DNA of 64,000 nucleotides from Simplicispira suum (GTDB taxonomy: Bacteria > Pseudomonadota > Gammaproteobacteria > Burkholderiales > Burkholderiaceae_C): contig NZ_CP027669.1 of NCBI RefSeq assembly GCF_003008595.1, positions 2,480,001 through 2,544,000 of the forward strand, in the 5' to 3' direction. The notes under the pieces were generated by a model. The model was not told the origin of the DNA and ran no database searches. It saw only the letters and a program-made list of their open reading frames with translations. A program made the position numbers and the translations under genes. Below, piece by piece: positions 21,256 to 49,383 of the stretch. Position 1 is the first letter of the stretch. Every line of letters starts with the position of its first letter.

Positions 21256-23544
21256 GTGCACCCGCCTGCATTCCGTCGCTTGATTCTGCTGGCCGTATTG
21301 GTCGCACTGGGCATCGGCGCCTTGTTTTGCCAAACGATCTGGTCCATGCGCAACTACGCGTGGCAGCACGCCGAGCGCACGGGTGTGAATCTGGCCTATA
21401 CCCTGCAGCAGTCCATTGCCACACTGCTCAAGAATCTCGATCCGTCGCTCCAGGGTCTGGCAAAAGACCTGGCGAGTCCACAAATCCTGGCCATGGATCC
21501 CGACCTGCGCAACCGCGTGTTGTTCGACCATTCGCTGCGTGCGGAAGGCCTGTCGGCAGTGTTGGTGCTGGACGCGCAAGGACAGCGCATGTTTGACTCC
21601 GGCGGGTTCGTCCCCGACGTGGTCGATTTTTCCGACCGCGACTATTTCCAGGCGTTCCAGTCAGGGGCACAGCAGGGCCTGTTCATAGGCAAGCCGGTGC
21701 GCTCGCGGCTGACCGGCCGGGGCACCTTGCCGATCAGCCGCGCCTGGTTCCAGCAGGACGGCAGCTTTGGTGGTGTGGTGGCGGGCTCTATTCGGCTCGA
21801 CTATTTCCACGCGCTGTTCGCCGCTGTCCAGATCGGACCGAAAAGCAGCCTGAACCTCTACCACACCGACGGCACCCTGATCGCGCGCCTGCCGCAAGAG
21901 GCAGGTGATATGGGACGCAGCGTTGCAGGCTCGGAAAACCATGCCCGCATTGCCTCGCGCTCCAGCGGCACGTTCACCAACCGGGCCGTGATTGACGGAG
22001 TGGAGCGCCTGTACGCCTTTCAGCAGGTGGGCGATTTTCCGCTGGTGGTCACCGTCGGGCAGTCAGCGGATGAAGTTCTGGCCAGCTGGCGCCGCAATTC
22101 CACGCTGCTGGGTAGCTTTGCCCTGCTGTTGATGCTGGCCTGCCTCGGGCTGGCCCTACTCTTTGTGCGTGAACTGCAGCAGCGCCAGCAATTGGCCGCG
22201 CAGCTGCACCAAGCTGAACGCGATCTGCACGCCATTCTCGACAACCTGCCCTCCATGATCAGCTATTGGGACAGCGAGCAGCGCAACCGCTTTGTCAACC
22301 AGAGCACCAGCGCCATGTTCGGGCACTCGCCGGAGGCGGTTCGCGGCATGTTGGCGCGGGAACTTCTGGGTGAGAAAGACTACGCTCTGGTCCGGCCGTA
22401 CCTCGAACAGGCGTTGCAAGGGCGTGTGCAGGTGTTTGAGCGAACCCTCACCGATGCCAAGGGGCAAAAGCGGCACATGCAAGTCAGCTACACCCCGGAC
22501 AGGGGCGGCAGCAACGGCCCGGTGCAAGGTATTTTTGTACAGATGACCGATATCTCCGAGCGCAAACGCATGGAGGATGAGCTGTTCCAGGAAAAAGAGC
22601 TCATGCGCCTGACCCTGCATTCCATCGGCGATGCTGTGGTCTGTGCCGACGCCGAGGGCCGCGTGAGCTACCTCAATCCGGTGGCCGAGCGCATGACCGG
22701 CTGGCAGGCCTTTGACGCCTCCGGGCGCGATGTGGACGAGGTCGCACCGCTGTACCTTGCCAATGGCCAGCAGACCCAGCCCAGCCCGCTGCGCGTGGCG
22801 TTGGCCACGCAGGCTGCCTGCGGTCCTACGCGCGGCGTGGTGTTGCACCGCAAGGACGGCCAGCGCTTTGAGGTAGAGGAGTCGGCCTGCCCCATCATTG
22901 ACCGCCAGCAGCGGCTTACCGGCGCCGTGATGGTGCTGCACGACGTGACCGAAACCATGGCCATGGCCGAGCGCATGGCGCGCCTGGCGCAGTACGACGC
23001 CTTGACCGATCTGCCCAACCGCGTACTGCTGCAGGACCGCGCGCAGCACGCGCTGGCGCTGGCGCGCCGCGAGAAGAGGGGCCTGGGCGTGATGTACCTC
23101 GACCTGGACGGGTTCAAGCAGGTCAACGACACCCTGGGCCACGACGCGGGCGACCAGCTGCTGGTGCAGTTTGCGCACCGCCTGGTGGCCGCCATGCGCC
23201 AGTCCGACACCGTGTGCCGCCAGGGCGGGGACGAATTTGTGCTGCTGCTGCCTGGGTTGGAGGACCCGCGCCAGGTGTGCGCGGTCGCCGGCAAGGTCTT
23301 GGGGGTATGCCAGGAGCCCTTTGTTCTTCGGGGTCAGGCGCTGAAAGTGGGCCTGAGCGGTGGACTGGCGCTGTTCCCGCAGCATGGCAGCGACTACGAG
23401 GAACTGGCCCGCCATGCCGATGCGGCGCTGTATGCCGCCAAGCGCGGCGGGCGCATGCAAGTGCGCAGTTACGTGGGGCCGGAGGCAGAGCCTGAACGGA
23501 TAGCGCCAACGGATCCGCCAGCCCCCGCGTTGCCAGACGTTTGA
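21256..23544 (+). CDS. Membrane diguanylate cyclase with periplasmic Cache-like sensor and two PAS domains
   Basis: A 762-aa protein. Membrane segments at about 9-28 and 289-312 bracket a periplasmic region resembling a double-Cache sensor (YFQAFQSGAQQGLFIGKPV, then a YHTDGTLIARLP strand). Two cytoplasmic PAS domains (about 325-440 and 450-570) lead to a GGDEF domain with YDALTDLPNR, an intact GGDEF motif at about 657 and the inhibitory site RQSD, so it should make c-di-GMP. There is no EAL domain. The start is GTG at 21256 with no clear ribosome site, and a different start nearby is possible. It follows pbpC by 62 bases. Confidence 0.88.
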   Translation: MHPPAFRRLILLAVLVALGIGALFCQTIWSMRNYAWQHAERTGVNLAYTLQQSIATLLKNLDPSLQGLAKDLASPQILAMDPDLRNRVLFDHSLRAEGLSAVLVLDAQGQRMFDSGGFVPDVVDFSDRDYFQAFQSGAQQGLFIGKPVRSRLTGRGTLPISRAWFQQDGSFGGVVAGSIRLDYFHALFAAVQIGPKSSLNLYHTDGTLIARLPQEAGDMGRSVAGSENHARIASRSSGTFTNRAVIDGVERLYAFQQVGDFPLVVTVGQSADEVLASWRRNSTLLGSFALLLMLACLGLALLFVRELQQRQQLAAQLHQAERDLHAILDNLPSMISYWDSEQRNRFVNQSTSAMFGHSPEAVRGMLARELLGEKDYALVRPYLEQALQGRVQVFERTLTDAKGQKRHMQVSYTPDRGGSNGPVQGIFVQMTDISERKRMEDELFQEKELMRLTLHSIGDAVVCADAEGRVSYLNPVAERMTGWQAFDASGRDVDEVAPLYLANGQQTQPSPLRVALATQAACGPTRGVVLHRKDGQRFEVEESACPIIDRQQRLTGAVMVLHDVTETMAMAERMARLAQYDALTDLPNRVLLQDRAQHALALARREKRGLGVMYLDLDGFKQVNDTLGHDAGDQLLVQFAHRLVAAMRQSDTVCRQGGDEFVLLLPGLEDPRQVCAVAGKVLGVCQEPFVLRGQALKVGLSGGLALFPQHGSDYEELARHADAALYAAKRGGRMQVRSYVGPEAEPERIAPTDPPAPALPDV

Positions 23545-23734: not shown

Positions 23735-24898
23735 GTGAGCGATCTTTCCACCATGACCTGCATCGAAGACCTGCGCCGCGTCTACAAGCGCCGCGTGCCG
23801 CGCATGTTCTACGACTACTGCGACTCGGGTTCGTGGACCGAAGGCACCTACCGCGCCAACATCGACGACTTTCAGTCCATCCTGCTGCGCCAGCGCGTGG
23901 CGGTGAACATGACCGGTCGCAGCACGCGCAGCACCATGATTGGCCAGGACGTCGCCATGCCCGTGGCGCTGGCCCCCACGGGCCTGACCGGCATGCAGCA
24001 TGCGGACGGCGAAATTCTGGCGGCGCGTGCAGCGCGCGATTTTGGCGTGCCCTTCACGCTCTCGACCATGAGCATCTGCTCGATCGAAGACGTGGCCGAG
24101 CACGCCGGACCGGGCTTCTGGTTCCAGCTGTATGTGATGCGCGACCGCGACTACATCGAACGCCTGATCGACCGCGCCAAGGCCGCCGGCTGCAGCGCGC
24201 TGCAGCTCACGCTGGATTTGCAGATCCTCGGCCAGAGGCACAAGGACATCAAGAACGGCCTGTCGTCGCCGCCCAAGCCCACGTTGGCCAACATGATCAA
24301 CCTGGCGACCAAGCCGCGCTGGTGCTTAGGGATGCTGGGCACCAAGCGGCGCAGCTTTGGCAACATCGTCGGCCACGCCAAGGGTGTGGGCGATATGTCG
24401 TCGCTGGCGTCCTGGACGGCCGAGCAGTTCGACCCGGAACTCAACTGGGGCGATGTCGAGTGGATCAAAAAGCGTTGGGGCGGCAAGCTGATCATCAAAG
24501 GCATCATGGATGCCGAAGACGCCCGCCTGGCTGCCGACAGTGGCGCCGACGCGCTCATCGTCAGCAACCACGGTGGCCGCCAGCTTGACGGCGCGCCCTC
24601 GTCGATTGCTGCGCTCCCGGCCATTGTGCAGGCGGTGGGCAAGGACATCGAAGTGTGGATGGACGGCGGCATCCGCAGCGGGCAGGACGTCCTCAAGGCC
24701 CGCGCCCTGGGCGCACGCGGCACCATGATTGGCCGCGCCTTCCTGTATGGCCTGGGCGCTTACGGCGAGCTGGGCGTGACCCGCGCGCTGGAGATCATCC
24801 GCCGCGAACTGGACCTCACCATGGCCTTTTGCGGCCACACCCGCATTGACACAGTGGATGAGGGCATCTTGCTGCCGGGGACCTATCCCAAGCCCTGA
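23735..24898 (+). CDS. lldD: FMN-dependent L-2-hydroxyacid (L-lactate-type) dehydrogenase
   Basis: A 387-aa member of the FMN alpha-hydroxyacid dehydrogenase family, a (beta/alpha)8 flavoenzyme that oxidises L-lactate or a related 2-hydroxyacid to the keto acid and feeds electrons to quinones. Motifs include PVALAPTGLTGMQHADGE near the N-terminus, the catalytic histidine H279 in IVSNHGGRQLDG, and the FMN phosphate site VWMDGGIRSGQDVLKA followed by GRAFLYGLGAYG. The GTG start has AGGAG 7 bases upstream. It has no regulator or permease neighbour. L-lactate is the likely but unproved substrate, and mandelate or glycolate oxidising relatives look similar. Confidence 0.82.
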   Translation: MSDLSTMTCIEDLRRVYKRRVPRMFYDYCDSGSWTEGTYRANIDDFQSILLRQRVAVNMTGRSTRSTMIGQDVAMPVALAPTGLTGMQHADGEILAARAARDFGVPFTLSTMSICSIEDVAEHAGPGFWFQLYVMRDRDYIERLIDRAKAAGCSALQLTLDLQILGQRHKDIKNGLSSPPKPTLANMINLATKPRWCLGMLGTKRRSFGNIVGHAKGVGDMSSLASWTAEQFDPELNWGDVEWIKKRWGGKLIIKGIMDAEDARLAADSGADALIVSNHGGRQLDGAPSSIAALPAIVQAVGKDIEVWMDGGIRSGQDVLKARALGARGTMIGRAFLYGLGAYGELGVTRALEIIRRELDLTMAFCGHTRIDTVDEGILLPGTYPKP

Positions 24899-25012
24899 TC
24901 TGATCGTCCTTGCCAGAGCGTAATCAGGCGTTCTGGCAACCGGCTGAATCCACTCGGCGGCGCGGTGCGTACAGGGAAAGCAAGATTTGCCTTCCTCAAC
25001 CACAATCCATGC

Positions 25013-25588
25013 ATGCCGCCACCTTCTTCCGACGCCCATCTGGTGGCGCTGATCGACCGCGTAGCCCAGCGCGACGAAGCCGCGCTGCGTGCCCTCTACG
25101 ACCTGACCTCGCCGCGCCTGTTTGGCCTGGCAATGCGCGTGCTGCGGCGGCGCGATGCTGCCGAAGACGTGCTGCAGGAGAGTTTTCTCACCGTCTGGCG
25201 CGCTGCCGGCGACTACCGGCTCTCGCTCAGCCCGCCGCTGGCCTGGCTGGGCGTCATCGTGCGCAGCCGGGCGCTCGACGCCTTGCGCAAGCACGCCAGC
25301 TCGCGCGCCGACCGCACCCAGGAGCTGGACGACAGCCTGGGCCATGCGCTGGAGAGCGACACGCCCGACCCCATGGACGCGGCCGACGCCAGCGAGCAGG
25401 CCACGGCCTTGCATACCTGCCTGCAGCGCCTGGAGGCCAAACAGCGCGAGGTGGTGAGCCTGGCCTATCTACGCGACCTGAGCCACAGCGAACTGGCCCA
25501 GCAGCTCGCCTTGCCGCTGGGCACCGTCAAGACCTGGATTCGGCGCGGGCTGGAACAACTGCGCGGCTGCATGGCGCGCTACGTGTGA
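25013..25588 (+). CDS. ECF RNA polymerase sigma factor (paired with RskA-type anti-sigma)
   Basis: A 191-aa sigma-70-family protein. Region 2 (about 18-85) includes ALYDLTSPRLFGLAMRVLRR then AAEDVLQESFLTVW, the core-polymerase and -10 contact segment. Region 4 (about 130-185) has YLRDLSHSELAQQLALPLGT then VKTWIRRGLEQL, the helix-turn-helix. The spacing is that of ECF factors without region 3. The ATG at MPPPSSDAHL was chosen, although an ATG-like start 16 codons earlier is open. It sits 10 bases before its anti-sigma gene and heads a run of exported proteins that are probably its regulon. Confidence 0.9.
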   Translation: MPPPSSDAHLVALIDRVAQRDEAALRALYDLTSPRLFGLAMRVLRRRDAAEDVLQESFLTVWRAAGDYRLSLSPPLAWLGVIVRSRALDALRKHASSRADRTQELDDSLGHALESDTPDPMDAADASEQATALHTCLQRLEAKQREVVSLAYLRDLSHSELAQQLALPLGTVKTWIRRGLEQLRGCMARYV

Positions 25589-25598
25589 GGGGCATGAC

Positions 25599-26390
25599 AT
25601 GAACCTCAACCAACACCCCGAATTGCTGCAAAAACTCGCGGCCAGCTACGCCCTTGGCACGCTGCGCGGCGGTGCGCGCCGCCGCTTTGAAACCCTGGCG
25701 CGCGAGCACCCGGCTGTGCGCGCTGCCGCACTTTTGTGGCAAAGCCATTGGGCGGGCCTCACCGAACTGCAGGCCCCCGAGCAGCCCCCGGCGGCCGTGT
25801 GGACACGCATAGCCAACCTGGTGCAGGCGGAGCGTGCAGCATTGCAGCACCAGAGCCACCAGCGCGCCCGACAGGCGCAGGCGGCTCCGTGGTGGCAGCG
25901 CATTGGGCTGTGGCAGGGTGCAGCAGCCCTGGGCGCGTTTGCCACCGCTGCAGCGGTCGTCGTTGCCTTGCAGGCCACCGGCGGCCTGCGCGACTCTTCT
26001 CAGCAGATTGCCAGCCTGCAGGCCGAACTGGCCGAGCGCGCGGCCCCGCAATCGACTTACGTGGCCGTGCTGCGCGACGAGAAAGCTGCGGCCGCGCTGC
26101 TTGTCACCTTCGACGCCCGCGATCAGCAACTGCAACTGCAGCGCGTTGGCGGCTTTGAAGTGCCAGGCGATCGCTCGTTGCAGCTCTGGGCCCTGCCCGC
26201 AGCTGGCAAGCCGCGCTCGCTGGGCGTGCTGGCCGACGGCCGCAGCCAGGCCCTGCCGGCAACGCCTGGCGAAGTGCAGGGCGTGCCCATGCTCGCCATC
26301 AGCCTGGAGCCCAAGGGCGGTGTGCCGTCTGAAGGCGGGCCGACCGGGCCGGTGCTGTTCACCGGCGAGTGGATTCAGAAATCCGCGTGA
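25599..26390 (+). CDS. RskA-like membrane anti-sigma factor
   Basis: A 263-aa single-pass protein. The cytoplasmic N-terminal half (1-100) holds a helical sigma-binding segment with YALGTLRGGARRRFETLA, typical of this family. There is no HxxxCxxC zinc motif, so it is not a ZAS-type redox sensor. One transmembrane helix lies at about 104-126. The C-terminal periplasmic RskA domain (about 135-262) carries LLVTFDARDQQLQLQ and LQLWALPAAGKPRSLGVL. It should hold the upstream ECF sigma factor inactive until released, possibly by proteolysis. The trigger is unknown. It lies 10 bases after the sigma gene. Confidence 0.88.
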   Translation: MNLNQHPELLQKLAASYALGTLRGGARRRFETLAREHPAVRAAALLWQSHWAGLTELQAPEQPPAAVWTRIANLVQAERAALQHQSHQRARQAQAAPWWQRIGLWQGAAALGAFATAAAVVVALQATGGLRDSSQQIASLQAELAERAAPQSTYVAVLRDEKAAAALLVTFDARDQQLQLQRVGGFEVPGDRSLQLWALPAAGKPRSLGVLADGRSQALPATPGEVQGVPMLAISLEPKGGVPSEGGPTGPVLFTGEWIQKSA

Positions 26391-26422
26391 CCATTCCAAC
26401 CAAGCCCAACCAAGCGAACCAC

Positions 26423-27364
26423 ATGGAAACCAAAATGAACTGGAAAACGCTGTCTCTGCTGGCGGCTCTGGCCTGCTCGCCGGCCCTGGCGCAGGCCGAA
26501 ACCGGCAAACTGCTGCTGACGGGCGGCGTCAGCAGCATCACCGGCACGGCCGGCGGCGGCATTACGCCCTGGGCGGTGATTGGCAGCAACGCCACCGAGG
26601 GCGAGTGGGGCGCCAGCGCCTTCACCACCCGCGCTGTGACGCACGACTACGCGCTGACCAGTTACGGCGCTGCGCTGGGCTGGAACGAGCGCGTCGAGCT
26701 CTCGGTGGCGCGGCAGGATTTCGACGCCGGCGCCGCGGTGGCGCTCAACGGCATTGCGCCGTTCGGCGTGCAGAGTGGCCAGCACATTCGCATGGACGTG
26801 CTCGGCCTGAAAGTGCGCGTGGCGGGCGACGCCGTCCTGGACGCCGACAGCTGGATGCCGCAAATTGCCATTGGCCTGGAGCACAAGCGCGTGCGCCCTG
26901 GCTCGCTGCAATCGGTGTTCGATTTTCTGGGCGCCGACACGCATGGGACCGATGTCTACGTCAGCGCCACCAAGCTGGTGCTGGACAAAGGCCTGCTGCT
27001 GAACGCCACCTTGCGCTCCACCCGCGCCAATCAGAACGGCCTGCTCGGTTTCGGTTCTGCGGCCCCAGGGCGCAACAGCCGCAGCCTGCAACCCGAGTTT
27101 TCGGTGGCCTGGTTGCTGAGGCGCGACCTCGCCATCGGTGCGGAATGGCGCTTCAAGCCCGACAACCTGCAGGCCACTGGTCGTGCAGCAGGCCTGGGCG
27201 CTGCGCTGCGCGAGGATGCGTGGCGGGACCTCTTTGTTGCCTGGGCGCCGAGCAAAAACCTCTCGCTCACATTGGCCTGGGCGGACCTGGGGCGTGTCGT
27301 TCCCGGCATCACCAACAACAGGCGCCAAAGTGGCGCGTATCTATCGGCCCAGGTGGCTTTTTAA
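26423..27364 (+). CDS. DUF3034 family exported protein, probable beta-barrel
   Basis: A 313-aa protein with a cleavable signal peptide (MNWKTLSLLAALACSPALAQ then A). The mature part begins ETGKLLLTGGVSSITGTAGG, which is characteristic of DUF3034. The rest alternates short beta-strand-like stretches and ends QSGAYLSAQVAF, a terminal-Phe pattern typical of outer-membrane beta-barrels, so an outer-membrane location is likely. The family has no known function to my knowledge. Two starts 4 codons apart (METKMNWK) are equally possible. It lies in the sigma/anti-sigma gene run, 32 bases after the anti-sigma gene and 13 bases before the globin gene. Confidence 0.8.
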   Translation: METKMNWKTLSLLAALACSPALAQAETGKLLLTGGVSSITGTAGGGITPWAVIGSNATEGEWGASAFTTRAVTHDYALTSYGAALGWNERVELSVARQDFDAGAAVALNGIAPFGVQSGQHIRMDVLGLKVRVAGDAVLDADSWMPQIAIGLEHKRVRPGSLQSVFDFLGADTHGTDVYVSATKLVLDKGLLLNATLRSTRANQNGLLGFGSAAPGRNSRSLQPEFSVAWLLRRDLAIGAEWRFKPDNLQATGRAAGLGAALREDAWRDLFVAWAPSKNLSLTLAWADLGRVVPGITNNRRQSGAYLSAQVAF

Positions 27365-27377
27365 GGCGGAACATCCC

Positions 27378-27824
27378 ATGAAAATATTCTCCTTGTGCTT
27401 CGCCCTGGCGCTTGCGGGCACGCAGCTGGCCCACGCCCAGACTGCTGCGGCCCCCGACGCCCCACCGCCCGGCCTCTACGCCGCGCTGGGTGAAAAAGCC
27501 GGCATCGACCGCCTGGCCGACGATTTTGTCGAGCGCCTGCTGCGCCACCCGCGCATCGGCCCTCAGTTCAAAGAAGTGAAACCCGCCGCGCTCAAAGAAA
27601 GCCTGGCCGAGCAGTTCTGCGTGCTGAGCGGTGGCCCGTGCACCTACCAGGGCGCCGACATGCTCGACGTACACGCCGACATGGACATCAACAAGGGCGA
27701 TTTCAACGCGCTGGTCGAGGTGCTGCAGCGCGCCATGGATGCGCAAGGCATTGCCTTCAGCCAACAAAACCGCTTGCTGGCGCTGCTCGCGCCCATGCAC
27801 CGCGACATCATCACGGTGCGCTGA
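27378..27824 (+). CDS. Exported group-1 truncated hemoglobin
   Basis: A 148-aa protein with a clear signal peptide (KIFSLCFALALAGTQLAHA) followed by a group-1 truncated-globin domain. LYAALGEKAGIDRLADDF forms the A-B helices, CVLSGGPCTYQGADM the E-F region, and the proximal haem ligand is H99 in DVHADMDI. Truncated globins bind O2, NO or other small ligands. Most are cytoplasmic, so an exported form beside a cupredoxin suggests a periplasmic gas, redox or detoxification role, which is inference. ATG 13 bases after the DUF3034 stop; only one base separates it from the cupredoxin gene. Confidence 0.85.
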   Translation: MKIFSLCFALALAGTQLAHAQTAAAPDAPPPGLYAALGEKAGIDRLADDFVERLLRHPRIGPQFKEVKPAALKESLAEQFCVLSGGPCTYQGADMLDVHADMDINKGDFNALVEVLQRAMDAQGIAFSQQNRLLALLAPMHRDIITVR

Positions 27825-27825
27825 C

Positions 27826-28473
27826 ATGCGCAGAAATACTCTTCTTTTGATAGCTGCTTGTGCAATCAGTGCAAGCGCTGGGGCCGGAAATGTGCAGTTT
27901 CAGGTGCTGGACAAGGAGGGCCGCGCCGTTCCCGACGCCGTGGTAGTCCTCTATCCGGCCAGCCCCGGCGCGCCGCCCGTGGCCAGCAAGGTCACGATCG
28001 GCCAGCAACGCATGCGCTTTTTGCCGCCCGTTACCGTGGTGGCGCCGGGCAGTACGCTGCACTTCACCAACCTCGACCGCTGGGACCACCACATTCGCGG
28101 CACCACGGCTGCACTGGGTTTTGCCGATCCCCGTGCCGGAGCCGATTTTGAGCTTCGGCTCGCCGGTGCCGAGGCCGGCGCATCCGGCGGAGAAGCCGAG
28201 GTCACGGTGGACAAGCCGGGCCCCATCCTGCTCGGCTGCCATTTGCACAGCTCCATGCGCGGCCATGTTTTTGTCAGTGATTCGGCCTGGACAGTCAAGA
28301 CCGACGACGACGGCATTGCCCGCTTCGGCGCCGTGCCCGAAGGCGCGGTGCAGCTGCGCGTCTGGCACCCTGAGCAACTGGTGGAACTGCCGCGCCGCAA
28401 CCTGCAGGTGGGCGCCGCGCCGGTGCTCGACAGCGTGCAGCTGAGTGTGGTGCCGCGGCGCAAGCGTTCCTGA
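27826..28473 (+). CDS. Exported cupredoxin-like (plastocyanin-type) protein
   Basis: A 215-aa periplasmic protein with a signal peptide (about 1-20). The cupredoxin fold spans about 22-150, with type-1 copper ligand candidates in LDRWDHHIRG (H88 or H89) and LLGCHLHSSMRGHVF (C138, H141, M144). The remaining C-terminal part is a beta-rich carboxypeptidase-regulatory-like segment (GIARFGAVPEGAVQLRVWHP). Similar proteins are sometimes labelled methylamine-utilisation proteins, but no methylamine genes are near. It starts one base after the globin stop, so the two are coupled. Part of its signal peptide coding resembles the interspersed repeat. Confidence 0.82.
   Translation: MRRNTLLLIAACAISASAGAGNVQFQVLDKEGRAVPDAVVVLYPASPGAPPVASKVTIGQQRMRFLPPVTVVAPGSTLHFTNLDRWDHHIRGTTAALGFADPRAGADFELRLAGAEAGASGGEAEVTVDKPGPILLGCHLHSSMRGHVFVSDSAWTVKTDDDGIARFGAVPEGAVQLRVWHPEQLVELPRRNLQVGAAPVLDSVQLSVVPRRKRS
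27846..27884 (+). repeat. Possible repeat-like tract in the cupredoxin signal sequence, copy 7
   Basis: Reads GATAGCTGCTTGTGCAATC then AGTGCAAGCGCTGGGG. It has the family order TAGCTGC, short spacer and AAGCGCTGG, but only one arm is well kept. Signal-peptide codons can give this by chance, so this is the weakest copy. Confidence 0.35.
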
Positions 28474-28576: not shown

Positions 28577-29880
28577 TCAGCCTCGCGCGTCGGCATCGAT
28601 ACAGATGCCACCGCGGCCATTGCCTTTGGCTTGGTACATGGCTGCATCTGCGCGCTTCATACAGGCATCGGCGCTGGCCAACGGATTGCGCAAAATCACC
28701 ACCCCCAAGCTAGCGCTACAGGCGTAGCGCAGCGTGGCGGCCTCGCCACCGAGATCAAAGTCGTTTGCCAGCGCCTGCATCACCTTGTCTGCCGCCGTGC
28801 GGGTGTGGCGCATGGCCCGCTGGTCATCGGCGTCCACATTTTCCATGAGGATGGTGAACTCGTCTCCTCCCAGGCGCGCTACCGTGTCGACGCTGCGCAC
28901 ACACCCAGTGAGGCGCTGTGCCACCTGCTGCAGCAGCGAGTCGCCCGCTGCATGCCCTTGCCGGTCATTCAGCGACTTGAAGCTGTCGAGATCCAGAAAC
29001 ATCAGCACGGCGTAGCTGCCGGTACGGGCCATGCTGTTCAGGGCTTGTTGCAGGCGGTCCATGAACAGACGGCGATTGGCCAGGCCAGTGAGCACATCAT
29101 GAAACGCCATGTGCCGAATCAACTCTTCGGACTCGCGGCGGCGGGTTACGTCCCGGCCGATGCCACGGTAGCCGACAAAGACTCCCGCACTGTCGAAAAT
29201 CGGCGCGCCACTGATGGCGTGCCACAGCAGGCGATTGTTGTCGCCTTGAATCGCCATCTCGAAATCATAGAACGTCTCCCGTCGGTCCAGGATGGCTTGG
29301 TACGTGGCCCATTGCGAGGCGCTGAGATCAATTTGCGGCAGTTGCTGGCGTGACTTGCCAAGCACTTCTTCCGAAGCGCCGGGGTTGATGCCCCGACTCC
29401 CAATGTCCAGGCGCACAAAGCGGCCCATGGCATCGAGTTCCCAATACCAGTCCGATGACAGTTCTGTCATTGCCCGAAAGCGGCTTTCACTGGCGTGCAG
29501 ATCGCGTTGGCGCTGGTATTCGTCTGTGATTTCCTGCACCGTACCTTCAAAATAGCACACGCGCCCCTGCGCATCACACACCTGGTGCGCGTGTTCACGC
29601 ACCCAGATGCGCTCTCTCGTCTTGTGGCGGTAGACTTCGGAGACAAATCCACCACCTGACCGTGCTCGCTGAGCAGACGGGTGAATTGTTCGCGGCGCTG
29701 GGGATCGCAATACCACTCGGTGCCAATGTCATGGATGGCCGCCAGCATCTCGGCTTCCGTCTGGTAGCCGTTGAGCTTGACCAAAGCCGCATTGGCGCGC
29801 AACTGGTGCCCAGCCGAGCTGGAGCGGTAGGCGCCGATGGGAAGCCGCTCAAACAGCGTCTGGAAGGAGTCTGTGTACAA
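28577..29880 (-). pseudogene. PAS-PAS-GGDEF diguanylate cyclase, broken by a one-base frameshift
   Basis: Two minus-strand frames join into one gene. The first (start 29880, MYTDSFQTLFERLPIGAYRS) encodes an N-terminal PAS segment to EHGQVV. The second resumes with GFVSEVYRHKTRERIWVREH and carries a second PAS domain and a GGDEF domain with intact GGDEF and RSVD inhibitory motifs. One missing G in a GG run (about 29649-29650) accounts for the break, and restoring it gives exactly 435 codons. It is either a recent pseudogene or a sequencing error. If translated from an internal start, the 3' part could still make a short cyclase. It converges on the cupredoxin gene. Confidence 0.8.
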
Positions 29881-48633: not shown

Positions 48634-49383
48634 ATGAGCATATCGCGCCAGAGCTTGCTGCACAGCTTGGACATGCTGCTGCAGCCCGAAAAATTCAAGG
48701 ACTACGGCCCCAATGGCTTGCAGGTGGAAGGCATGGAGCAGGTCTCTTTGCTGGTGAGCGGCGTCACTGCCAGCCTGGCCCTGATTGACGCAGCCATCGA
48801 AGCCCAGGCTGACGCCATTCTGGTGCATCACGGCCTGTTCTGGCGCGGCCAGGACGGCCGGGTCACCGGATGGATGAAGCAGCGCCTGCAGCGCCTTCTG
48901 GCGCACGACATCAACCTGTTTGCCTACCACTTGCCGCTCGATGCGCACCCTGCGCTGGGAAATAACGCGCGCCTGGGGGCTGAGCTGGGCTGGAAAGCGG
49001 ACGCGTATTTTGGCGAACAAGACCTTGGTTGCCTGGCCCATGTCCAGTACGCCAGCAGCGCTGATCTGTGCGCGCAGGTGGGCAGGGTGCTGCGCCGCGA
49101 GCCTGTTTTCGTTGCGGGCCATGCCGGCCCTATCACGCGGGTCGGCTGGTGCACGGGTGGCGCGCAGGGGTATTTTGAATCCGCTGCAGCGGCGGGTGCG
49201 CAGGTGTTTGTCACGGGCGAGATCTCTGAACCGCAGGCGCATCTGGCCAAGGAAATGGGCGTGGGCTTTGTGGCTGCCGGCCACCATGCCACCGAGCGCT
49301 ACGGCGCACCCGCTGTGGCAGCCCACGTGGCGCAACAGCTGGGAATTCGACATCGCTTCATTGAAGTGGACAACCCGGCCTAG
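48634..49383 (+). CDS. NIF3/YbgI-family dinuclear metal-binding protein
   Basis: A 249-aa protein of the NIF3 family. Metal-ligand histidines appear in ILVHHGLFWRGQ and FAYHLPLDAHPALGNN, and the C-terminal pair in AAGHHATERYG with the preceding FVTGEISEPQ. It is sometimes named GTP cyclohydrolase I type 2, but the physiological role is unsettled. The start was chosen at MSISRQSLLH. The DegS-like gene lies divergently 86 bases upstream, and a repeat copy follows the gene. Confidence 0.85.
   Translation: MSISRQSLLHSLDMLLQPEKFKDYGPNGLQVEGMEQVSLLVSGVTASLALIDAAIEAQADAILVHHGLFWRGQDGRVTGWMKQRLQRLLAHDINLFAYHLPLDAHPALGNNARLGAELGWKADAYFGEQDLGCLAHVQYASSADLCAQVGRVLRREPVFVAGHAGPITRVGWCTGGAQGYFESAAAAGAQVFVTGEISEPQAHLAKEMGVGFVAAGHHATERYGAPAVAAHVAQQLGIRHRFIEVDNPA

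Follow-up and report, generated by a model that had tools for sequence, protein, structure and literature searches.

A 64,000-nucleotide (nt) stretch of the Simplicispira suum genome (contig NZ_CP027669.1, positions 2,480,001 to 2,544,000; hereafter the window) carries five co-directional genes encoding an extracytoplasmic function (ECF) sigma factor, an RskA-type anti-sigma factor, a DUF3034 protein, a truncated globin and a cupredoxin. Comparison with related loci leads us to consider it probable that this is an envelope redox-stress operon of the SigK/RskA type that has captured a barrel–globin–cupredoxin module, the same module standing beside alternative signal transducers elsewhere. The proposal that the SigK/RskA-type pair would drive the module together with methionine-sulfoxide repair and surface proteins is well supported by these sequence comparisons. 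The five open reading frames (ORFs), with intergenic gaps of 10, 32, 13 and 1 nt, were confirmed exactly as an earlier sequence-only reading had described them, in a genome of 4.15 Mb on three contigs. In a Pfam comparison of the window ORFs, the matches to ECF sigma factor, RskA_C, DUF3034 and Bac_globin exceeded the cut-off, and that to Copper-bind fell slightly short of it.

To define the conserved unit, DUF3034 loci were collected from 70 neighbourhoods in surveyed genomes, 80 from named contigs and the window; after three duplicates were dropped and a 38.8-bit fragment (G286) was excluded, 148 distinct loci remained. The named-contig loci are the best 80 of 561 and hence Burkholderiales-rich, and neighbourhoods were annotated with purpose-made profiles, some of the stretches being short. 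DUF3034 was present in 20 of 80 genomes comprising the organism's own and its relatives, in 18 of 369 of the class and in 39 of 398 of the phylum, these sets overlapping. A globin lay within 600 nt of DUF3034 in 137 of the 148 loci, and the co-occurrence across genomes, the lack of which would have refuted the sequence-only reading, holds for this pair; of the 11 loci with no nearby globin, two (L088, L100) are at contig ends and one (L212) is a second copy that has degenerated. A cupredoxin was found within 6 kb of DUF3034 in 91 of the 148. In independent plasmid records, all 13 that carry DUF3034 have a globin within 250 nt of it, and two Caballeronia plasmids are annotated with DUF3034, a group 1 truncated hemoglobin, a methylamine utilization protein and an EAL protein. 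Strong globin matches (E below 1e-35) occurred in 22 of the 80 genomes, covering all 20 that bear DUF3034. Among the best 80 of 561 named contigs, the nearest named relatives are Comamonadaceae, and the nearest genus-named one is a Giesbergeria metagenome-assembled genome (L075) with a 91% identical DUF3034.

Several loci vary this arrangement. Family globins also occur in genomes without DUF3034, in three copies in G063 (contigs C5, C8 and C11) and in G077 (C145). In Massilia glaciei (L125:5670-7868), a 732-residue PF00141 peroxidase is encoded directly upstream of DUF3034, and a Lysobacter locus has, between cupredoxin and DUF3034, a 375-residue ORF (L153:6095-7222) that matches nothing in Pfam below 1e-4, at a place where the EAL protein is frequently encoded.

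The signal transducer beside the core differs from locus to locus. A SigK-like sigma factor is encoded within 8 kb of DUF3034 in 40 of the 148 loci, a sensor and EAL profile protein within 6 kb in 39, and both in none. The five-gene unit of the sequence-only reading therefore stood as far as the DUF3034–globin(–cupredoxin) core is concerned and failed for the sigma/RskA pair, in whose place a sensor–GGDEF–EAL protein is found in those 39 loci. We rejected the idea that the pair is intrinsic to the module, with no such sigma factor within 8 kb in 108 of the 148 loci (some stretches being shorter); a tie between the two is also contradicted by G027, which has RskA and a promoter site before its own sigma factor gene and no DUF3034. 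Since four genomes of the same genus hold the module with no RskA match, the sigma factor is dispensable for it.

Where the pair is present, it is no anonymous ECF system, as it had first been described, but a relative of SigK/RskA. The best match of the window sigma factor in a Protein Data Bank (PDB) sequence search was Mycobacterium tuberculosis SigK (4nqw; E = 7e-26, top of 18), and the NCBIfam SigK model PRK09646 was second best at a score under its cut-off (139.5 versus 226). Both SigK cysteines (C133 and C183, numbered via the chain offset) align with cysteines of the window protein in the comparison with 4nqw, and the pair is kept in 40 of 46 aligned sigma factors. It is missing from the sigma factors of L073 and L112 and from the second ones of L093, L094 and L109, all of them distinct from the module's own pair; that of L098 is cut before the second cysteine position. 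The anti-sigma factor scored 91.4 bits with PF10099 (RskA_C; cut-off 29.4), and a PDB sequence search with it gave no real match. According to the parts of a published SigK account that we drew on (PMC7509140), cysteines 133 and 183 occur in 94% of ECF18, 56% of ECF19 and under 2% of other groups, their disulfide stabilises the SigK–RskA complex, Yersinia also has an mpt83–sigK–rskA cassette with a SigK site, and the activating signal of SigK was stated as unknown in 2020.

When gapped words were enumerated in the regions preceding the sigma and DUF3034 genes of sigma-type loci, TGAAT-N18-CGTA ranked first. Over 57 distinct sites the fuller pattern was TGAATCC(A/G) with GCGTA, in which TGAAT and CGTA are the selected columns and the remaining columns were not selected for. 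In the 143-locus table, 29 of 40 sigma-type loci carry TGAATC-N17-CGTA no more than 400 nt upstream of DUF3034, compared with none of 38 dCache–EAL loci and 6 of the 65 that have neither transducer. In the window, where it is the sole match to the motif, and in L050, L051 and L052, the site precedes the sigma factor gene instead of DUF3034. A site with no sigma factor nearby predicts a sigma factor elsewhere in the genome, and indeed all six such genomes have an RskA match elsewhere, five of them full length and one (L115) a 55-residue fragment. Among ten genomes drawn from the 59 loci with neither sigma factor nor site, RskA matches fell below 1e-30 in three, were weaker in two and were absent from five. 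This promoter footprint supports the sigma control of the module predicted by the sequence-only reading. With at most one mismatch the motif matched 27 times in the organism's own genome, compared with 7 for a reversed-pattern control. The own-genome matches at C2:51344, C2:116566 and C1:3354078, and a one-mismatch match at window position 49176, were rejected as lying inside ORFs or breaking the consensus.

Genome-wide, TGAATCCR-N14-GCGTA occurs in 3, 3, 3 and 5 copies in the same-genus genomes with full-length RskA (G000, G007, G017 and G019; matches below 1e-100). It is absent from the other 22 same-genus genomes, several of them incomplete, among which G001 and G010 have a partial RskA-like match; a reversed-pattern control gave no matches. 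Of 22 genomes from outside the genus, five have a single site each, including G027, where it precedes the genome's own sigma factor gene, and G049 and G057, which have distant RskA matches. The sites of G000, G007 and G017 precede the sigma operon, msrP and a fasciclin gene, the three of the window genome standing before the present operon, msrPQ and a fasciclin gene. MsrP and MsrQ exceed their NCBIfam cut-offs and fasciclin its Pfam cut-off; the fasciclin gene, which does not adjoin the sigma/RskA pair, lies approximately 0.57 Mb away and has the same promoter site. The msrP gene itself occurs in 23 of the 26 genomes of the genus, with one partial match (G011). Its upstream region contains a site in 3 of 4 sigma-bearing loci and in none of the 18 others included (Fisher p = 0.0026), a comparison from which the partial match in G011 was left out and in which the upstream stretch of G025 was too short to reach the usual position of the site, though G025 is siteless genome-wide.

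In G019 the sites precede genes for a glutathione peroxidase (GSHPx) with a signal-like N-terminus, DUF4331 and DUF3455, and in related loci they precede DUF4331, DUF3455, Ferritin_2 and cytochrome c genes, including in L045, L085 and L115, where there is no sigma factor nearby. The envelope redox theme of the sequence-only reading is supported by msrPQ and fasciclin here and by the signal-like GSHPx of G019. Judged by these predicted targets, the regulon would most simply be an envelope oxidative-stress response. In a transcriptome of root-attached Delftia acidovorans RAY209 (PMC7725335), one fasciclin gene and a pair of DUF3455 genes are reported to be strongly induced, and a ferritin-like gene whose number adjoins that of the fasciclin gene to be up-regulated. 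All of these belong to families that recur among the predicted sigma targets. Separately, L045, with no sigma factor within 8 kb, and the dCache locus L064 have DUF4331 and two further genes in common near the module, and the DUF4331 gene of L045 has a TGAATCC-N16-CGTA site.

Several observations weigh against a sigma-driven redox module. In 57 of the 148 loci no cupredoxin turned up within 6 kb, some stretches being short. The module occurs with no RskA match in four same-genus genomes, one complete (G004) and three 77-89% complete (G018, G021 and G025), none of which has a site. Two genomes outside the genus, G048 and G066, have a single site but no RskA match, so that single sites also arise by chance. 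No site precedes msrP in G019. In 7 of the 40 sigma-type loci, neither the sigma factor gene nor DUF3034 directly follows a strict site: four of them (L098, L105, L120 and L141) are siteless across the stretch and three (L079, L089 and L132) have sites only before other genes. Nothing links a particular oxidant to the signal, and the aliphatic distal pocket of the globin, judged from its sequence, does not favour a classical nitric oxide (NO) dioxygenase or peroxidase. The four same-genus genomes without RskA would also fit a view in which sigma factor and module are mere neighbours under ordinary housekeeping expression. We regard this as very improbable, given that the site lies upstream of DUF3034 even where the sigma factor gene is convergent or elsewhere in the genome and that, within the genus, genome-wide sites occur only in sigma-bearing genomes.

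The alternation of transducers bears on what the module does. Pfam analysis of four sensor–EAL proteins (L061, L066, L039 and L040) gave a dCache_3-HAMP-GGDEF-EAL architecture in each. On a quick DUF3034 tree of the 143 loci, in which 49 of 140 inner branches are poorly supported, sigma versus dCache–EAL requires one change and sigma versus not-sigma 16; the latter count takes in the 65 loci with neither transducer nearby, so the sigma factor has repeatedly been lost or relocated. Among the 143 loci, the position of the sigma pair is upstream in 17, downstream in 17, convergent in 5 and divergent in 1. In one locus without an identified globin (L063:9083-12412), dCache_3-HAMP is fused not to GGDEF-EAL but to a protein kinase domain (Pkinase), next to cupredoxin and DUF3034. 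Loci L070-L073 hold a divergent DUF3034, with no globin or cupredoxin in the stretch read and PAS sigma-54 activators of the same family nearby (by Pfam in L070 and L072).

Because the transducers alternate, a sensory role is somewhat favoured: globin and cupredoxin could form the receptor of an envelope gas or redox sensor feeding the adjoining transducer, whether RskA–sigma or dCache_3-HAMP-GGDEF-EAL. The strict exclusion of the two transducers, the single change between them on the tree, the dCache_3 kinase of L063 and an apolar distal pocket that suits a ligand sensor all speak for this reading. Nevertheless, neither transducer is encoded near 65 of the 143 loci on the tree, control of the module by the sigma factor fits an effector as well, and contact of RskA or dCache_3 with globin or cupredoxin has to be assumed; we hold a receptor role to be unlikely, at perhaps a quarter of the weight. 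Both roles would fit; control by the sigma factor favours an effector role, as a redox pair acting on a small oxidant or NO.

The predicted properties of the three proteins are compatible with an envelope location. The DUF3034 model has 12 strands (predicted local distance difference test score, pLDDT, 85) and ends in Phe; its fold matches are outer-membrane barrels (FapF, KdgM, COG4313), and the protein is accordingly modelled as a predicted outer-membrane beta-barrel, at 13% or less sequence identity to the COG4313 channel (PDB 4rl8) and FapF (5o65). The globin matches PF01152 (40.4 bits) and, in the PDB, group 1 truncated haemoglobins; in the alignment its proximal histidine is kept in 140 of 140 sequences and its cysteine pair in 139. 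At the distal sites of HbN it has Val51 and Leu76, relatives having mostly V/L/M/I and L/I/F/V, and the polar residues of HbN, Tyr33 (B10) and Gln58 (E11), are absent from it in the PDB alignment; this disfavours simple O2 storage. Its N-terminus is hydrophobic, and globin and plastocyanin-like protein both look exported, in agreement with the export first proposed, by a crude N-terminus test only. Module globins are lipoprotein-like in L180, L185, L195 and L200 in the alignment, and in 31 of 140 sequences by a loose lipobox pattern. The cupredoxin has His-Cys-His-Met type-1 copper ligands in a plastocyanin fold, kept in 96 of 97 aligned sequences. By predicted fold and ligand set it is probably a type-1 copper protein; a PDB sequence search with it gave a weak amicyanin match only.

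These cofactors would also suit a role in metal handling, with DUF3034 as importer or exporter and globin and cupredoxin as haem and copper carriers for cofactor supply or metal resistance. The match behind this proposal is weaker than those of DUF3034 to FapF, KdgM and COG4313, the other predicted targets (msrPQ, GSHPx and fasciclin) indicate oxidation and not metal transport, and the annotation of the three regions read includes no gene for copper resistance. We think such a role improbable, appreciably more so than that of a receptor.

In the envelope redox-stress operon that we prefer, RskA would keep the sigma factor at the membrane until an envelope oxidative (or NO- or copper-type) signal frees it, probably via regulated proteolysis and/or the SigK-type cysteine pair. 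The freed sigma factor would transcribe from TGAATCCR-N14-GCGTA promoters its own operon, msrPQ and the fasciclin gene here and, in relatives, glutathione peroxidase, Ferritin_2, DUF4331, DUF3455 and cytochrome c genes. The operon's effector module would comprise DUF3034 as outer-membrane barrel and two exported proteins, the haem globin and the type-1 copper protein. Most likely, globin and cupredoxin would act as a periplasmic haem/copper redox pair, in which the cupredoxin would give electrons to the globin or take them from it and the globin may react with NO, peroxide or another small ligand or oxidant, and DUF3034 may serve as a small-molecule channel or outer-membrane anchor. The computed basis for this scheme is the gene set, its conservation, the ligand residues, the predicted folds, the promoter motif, the set of sites and the joint loss of sites and sigma factor.

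Parts of the scheme resemble known systems. With SigK/RskA of M. tuberculosis and Yersinia (ECF18/ECF19), as far as portions of that account go (PMC7509140), it shares an ECF sigma factor beside RskA and both redox cysteines. A fasciclin gene with a cognate site is a further likeness, whereas in place of an adjoining fasciclin gene the operon here has DUF3034, globin and cupredoxin, and msrPQ shares the site; the promoter was derived from these genomes alone. MPT83 and MPT70 are fasciclin proteins. The Brucella ECF16 system BcrS/AbcS, in the excerpts consulted (PMC8315932, PMC10151825), likewise has an ECF sigma factor driving MsrPQ-type periplasmic methionine-sulfoxide repair, but differs in its six-transmembrane NrsF-type anti-sigma factor and methionine-rich peptide partner, and those excerpts mention no globin or cupredoxin (PMC8315932). 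The module globin shares its family, proximal histidine and GGP turn with HbN (PDB 1idr and relatives), but is exported and has a conserved cysteine pair and aliphatic residues at the Tyr33 and Gln58 positions. The cupredoxin has the type-1 copper ligand set and fold of plastocyanin, amicyanin and the 'methylamine utilization protein' of Caballeronia, but is set in an Ig (immunoglobulin)-like domain, and the two annotated Caballeronia regions read contain no methylamine dehydrogenase genes. The open-access literature searched gave no description of the module (titles and abstract openings among the matches listed, subscription literature not covered). DUF3034 occurs there in two papers, with a single mention in each, and phrases for an exported or periplasmic globin in one; two papers on cable bacteria (PMC11976967 and PMC12093952) contain truncated-haemoglobin terms.

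Table 1. Features of the operon in the window (position 1 is its first nucleotide).
Feature	Position	Strand	Basis
Predicted sigma-dependent promoter, TGAATCC-N16-CGTA (-35, -10)	24945..24971	+	Upstream-region comparison; 41 nt before the sigma start codon
ECF sigma factor, SigK-like, both SigK redox cysteines	25013..25588	+	Pfam/NCBIfam, PDB match 4nqw, cysteine conservation
RskA-type membrane anti-sigma factor	25599..26390	+	PF10099 (RskA_C); one hydrophobic segment by eye; no Cys
DUF3034, predicted 12-stranded outer-membrane beta-barrel, conserved N-terminal GGG segment	26423..27364	+	
Exported group-I-type truncated globin, Cys81/Cys88 pair, proximal His99	27378..27824	+	PF01152, PDB group 1 truncated haemoglobins, conservation, hydrophobic N-terminus
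Exported plastocyanin-like cupredoxin inside carboxypeptidase-regulatory-like (Ig-like) domain	27826..28473	+	

The operon is flanked in the window by genes for a dCache_1/PAS-GGDEF protein (21256-23544), an FMN-dependent dehydrogenase (23735-24898) and a PAS-GGDEF protein (28577-29716). In several same-genus genomes, genes related to the first two are likewise located upstream of the module. The two GGDEF genes were rejected as cyclic di-GMP (c-di-GMP) partners of the module, having no EAL domain.

A broader possibility, which we advance tentatively and at less than even odds, is that DUF3034, exported globin and cupredoxin form a haem–copper apparatus in the envelope of Pseudomonadota, not described before, that senses or processes a small oxidant or gas and has interchangeable transducers. 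At that same tentative level, taken jointly, these would be SigK/RskA in Comamonadaceae-type bacteria, dCache_3 c-di-GMP enzymes elsewhere and once, where no globin was found, a dCache_3 kinase. The envelope protein set of barrel, exported globin and copper protein is widespread and apparently undescribed. With a SigK-type switch that seems to govern proteins of haem, copper and methionine repair in environmental bacteria amenable to culture, the signal of such switches becomes testable. Since c-di-GMP enzymes accompany the same module elsewhere, the envelope unit would seem able to serve more than one kind of output.

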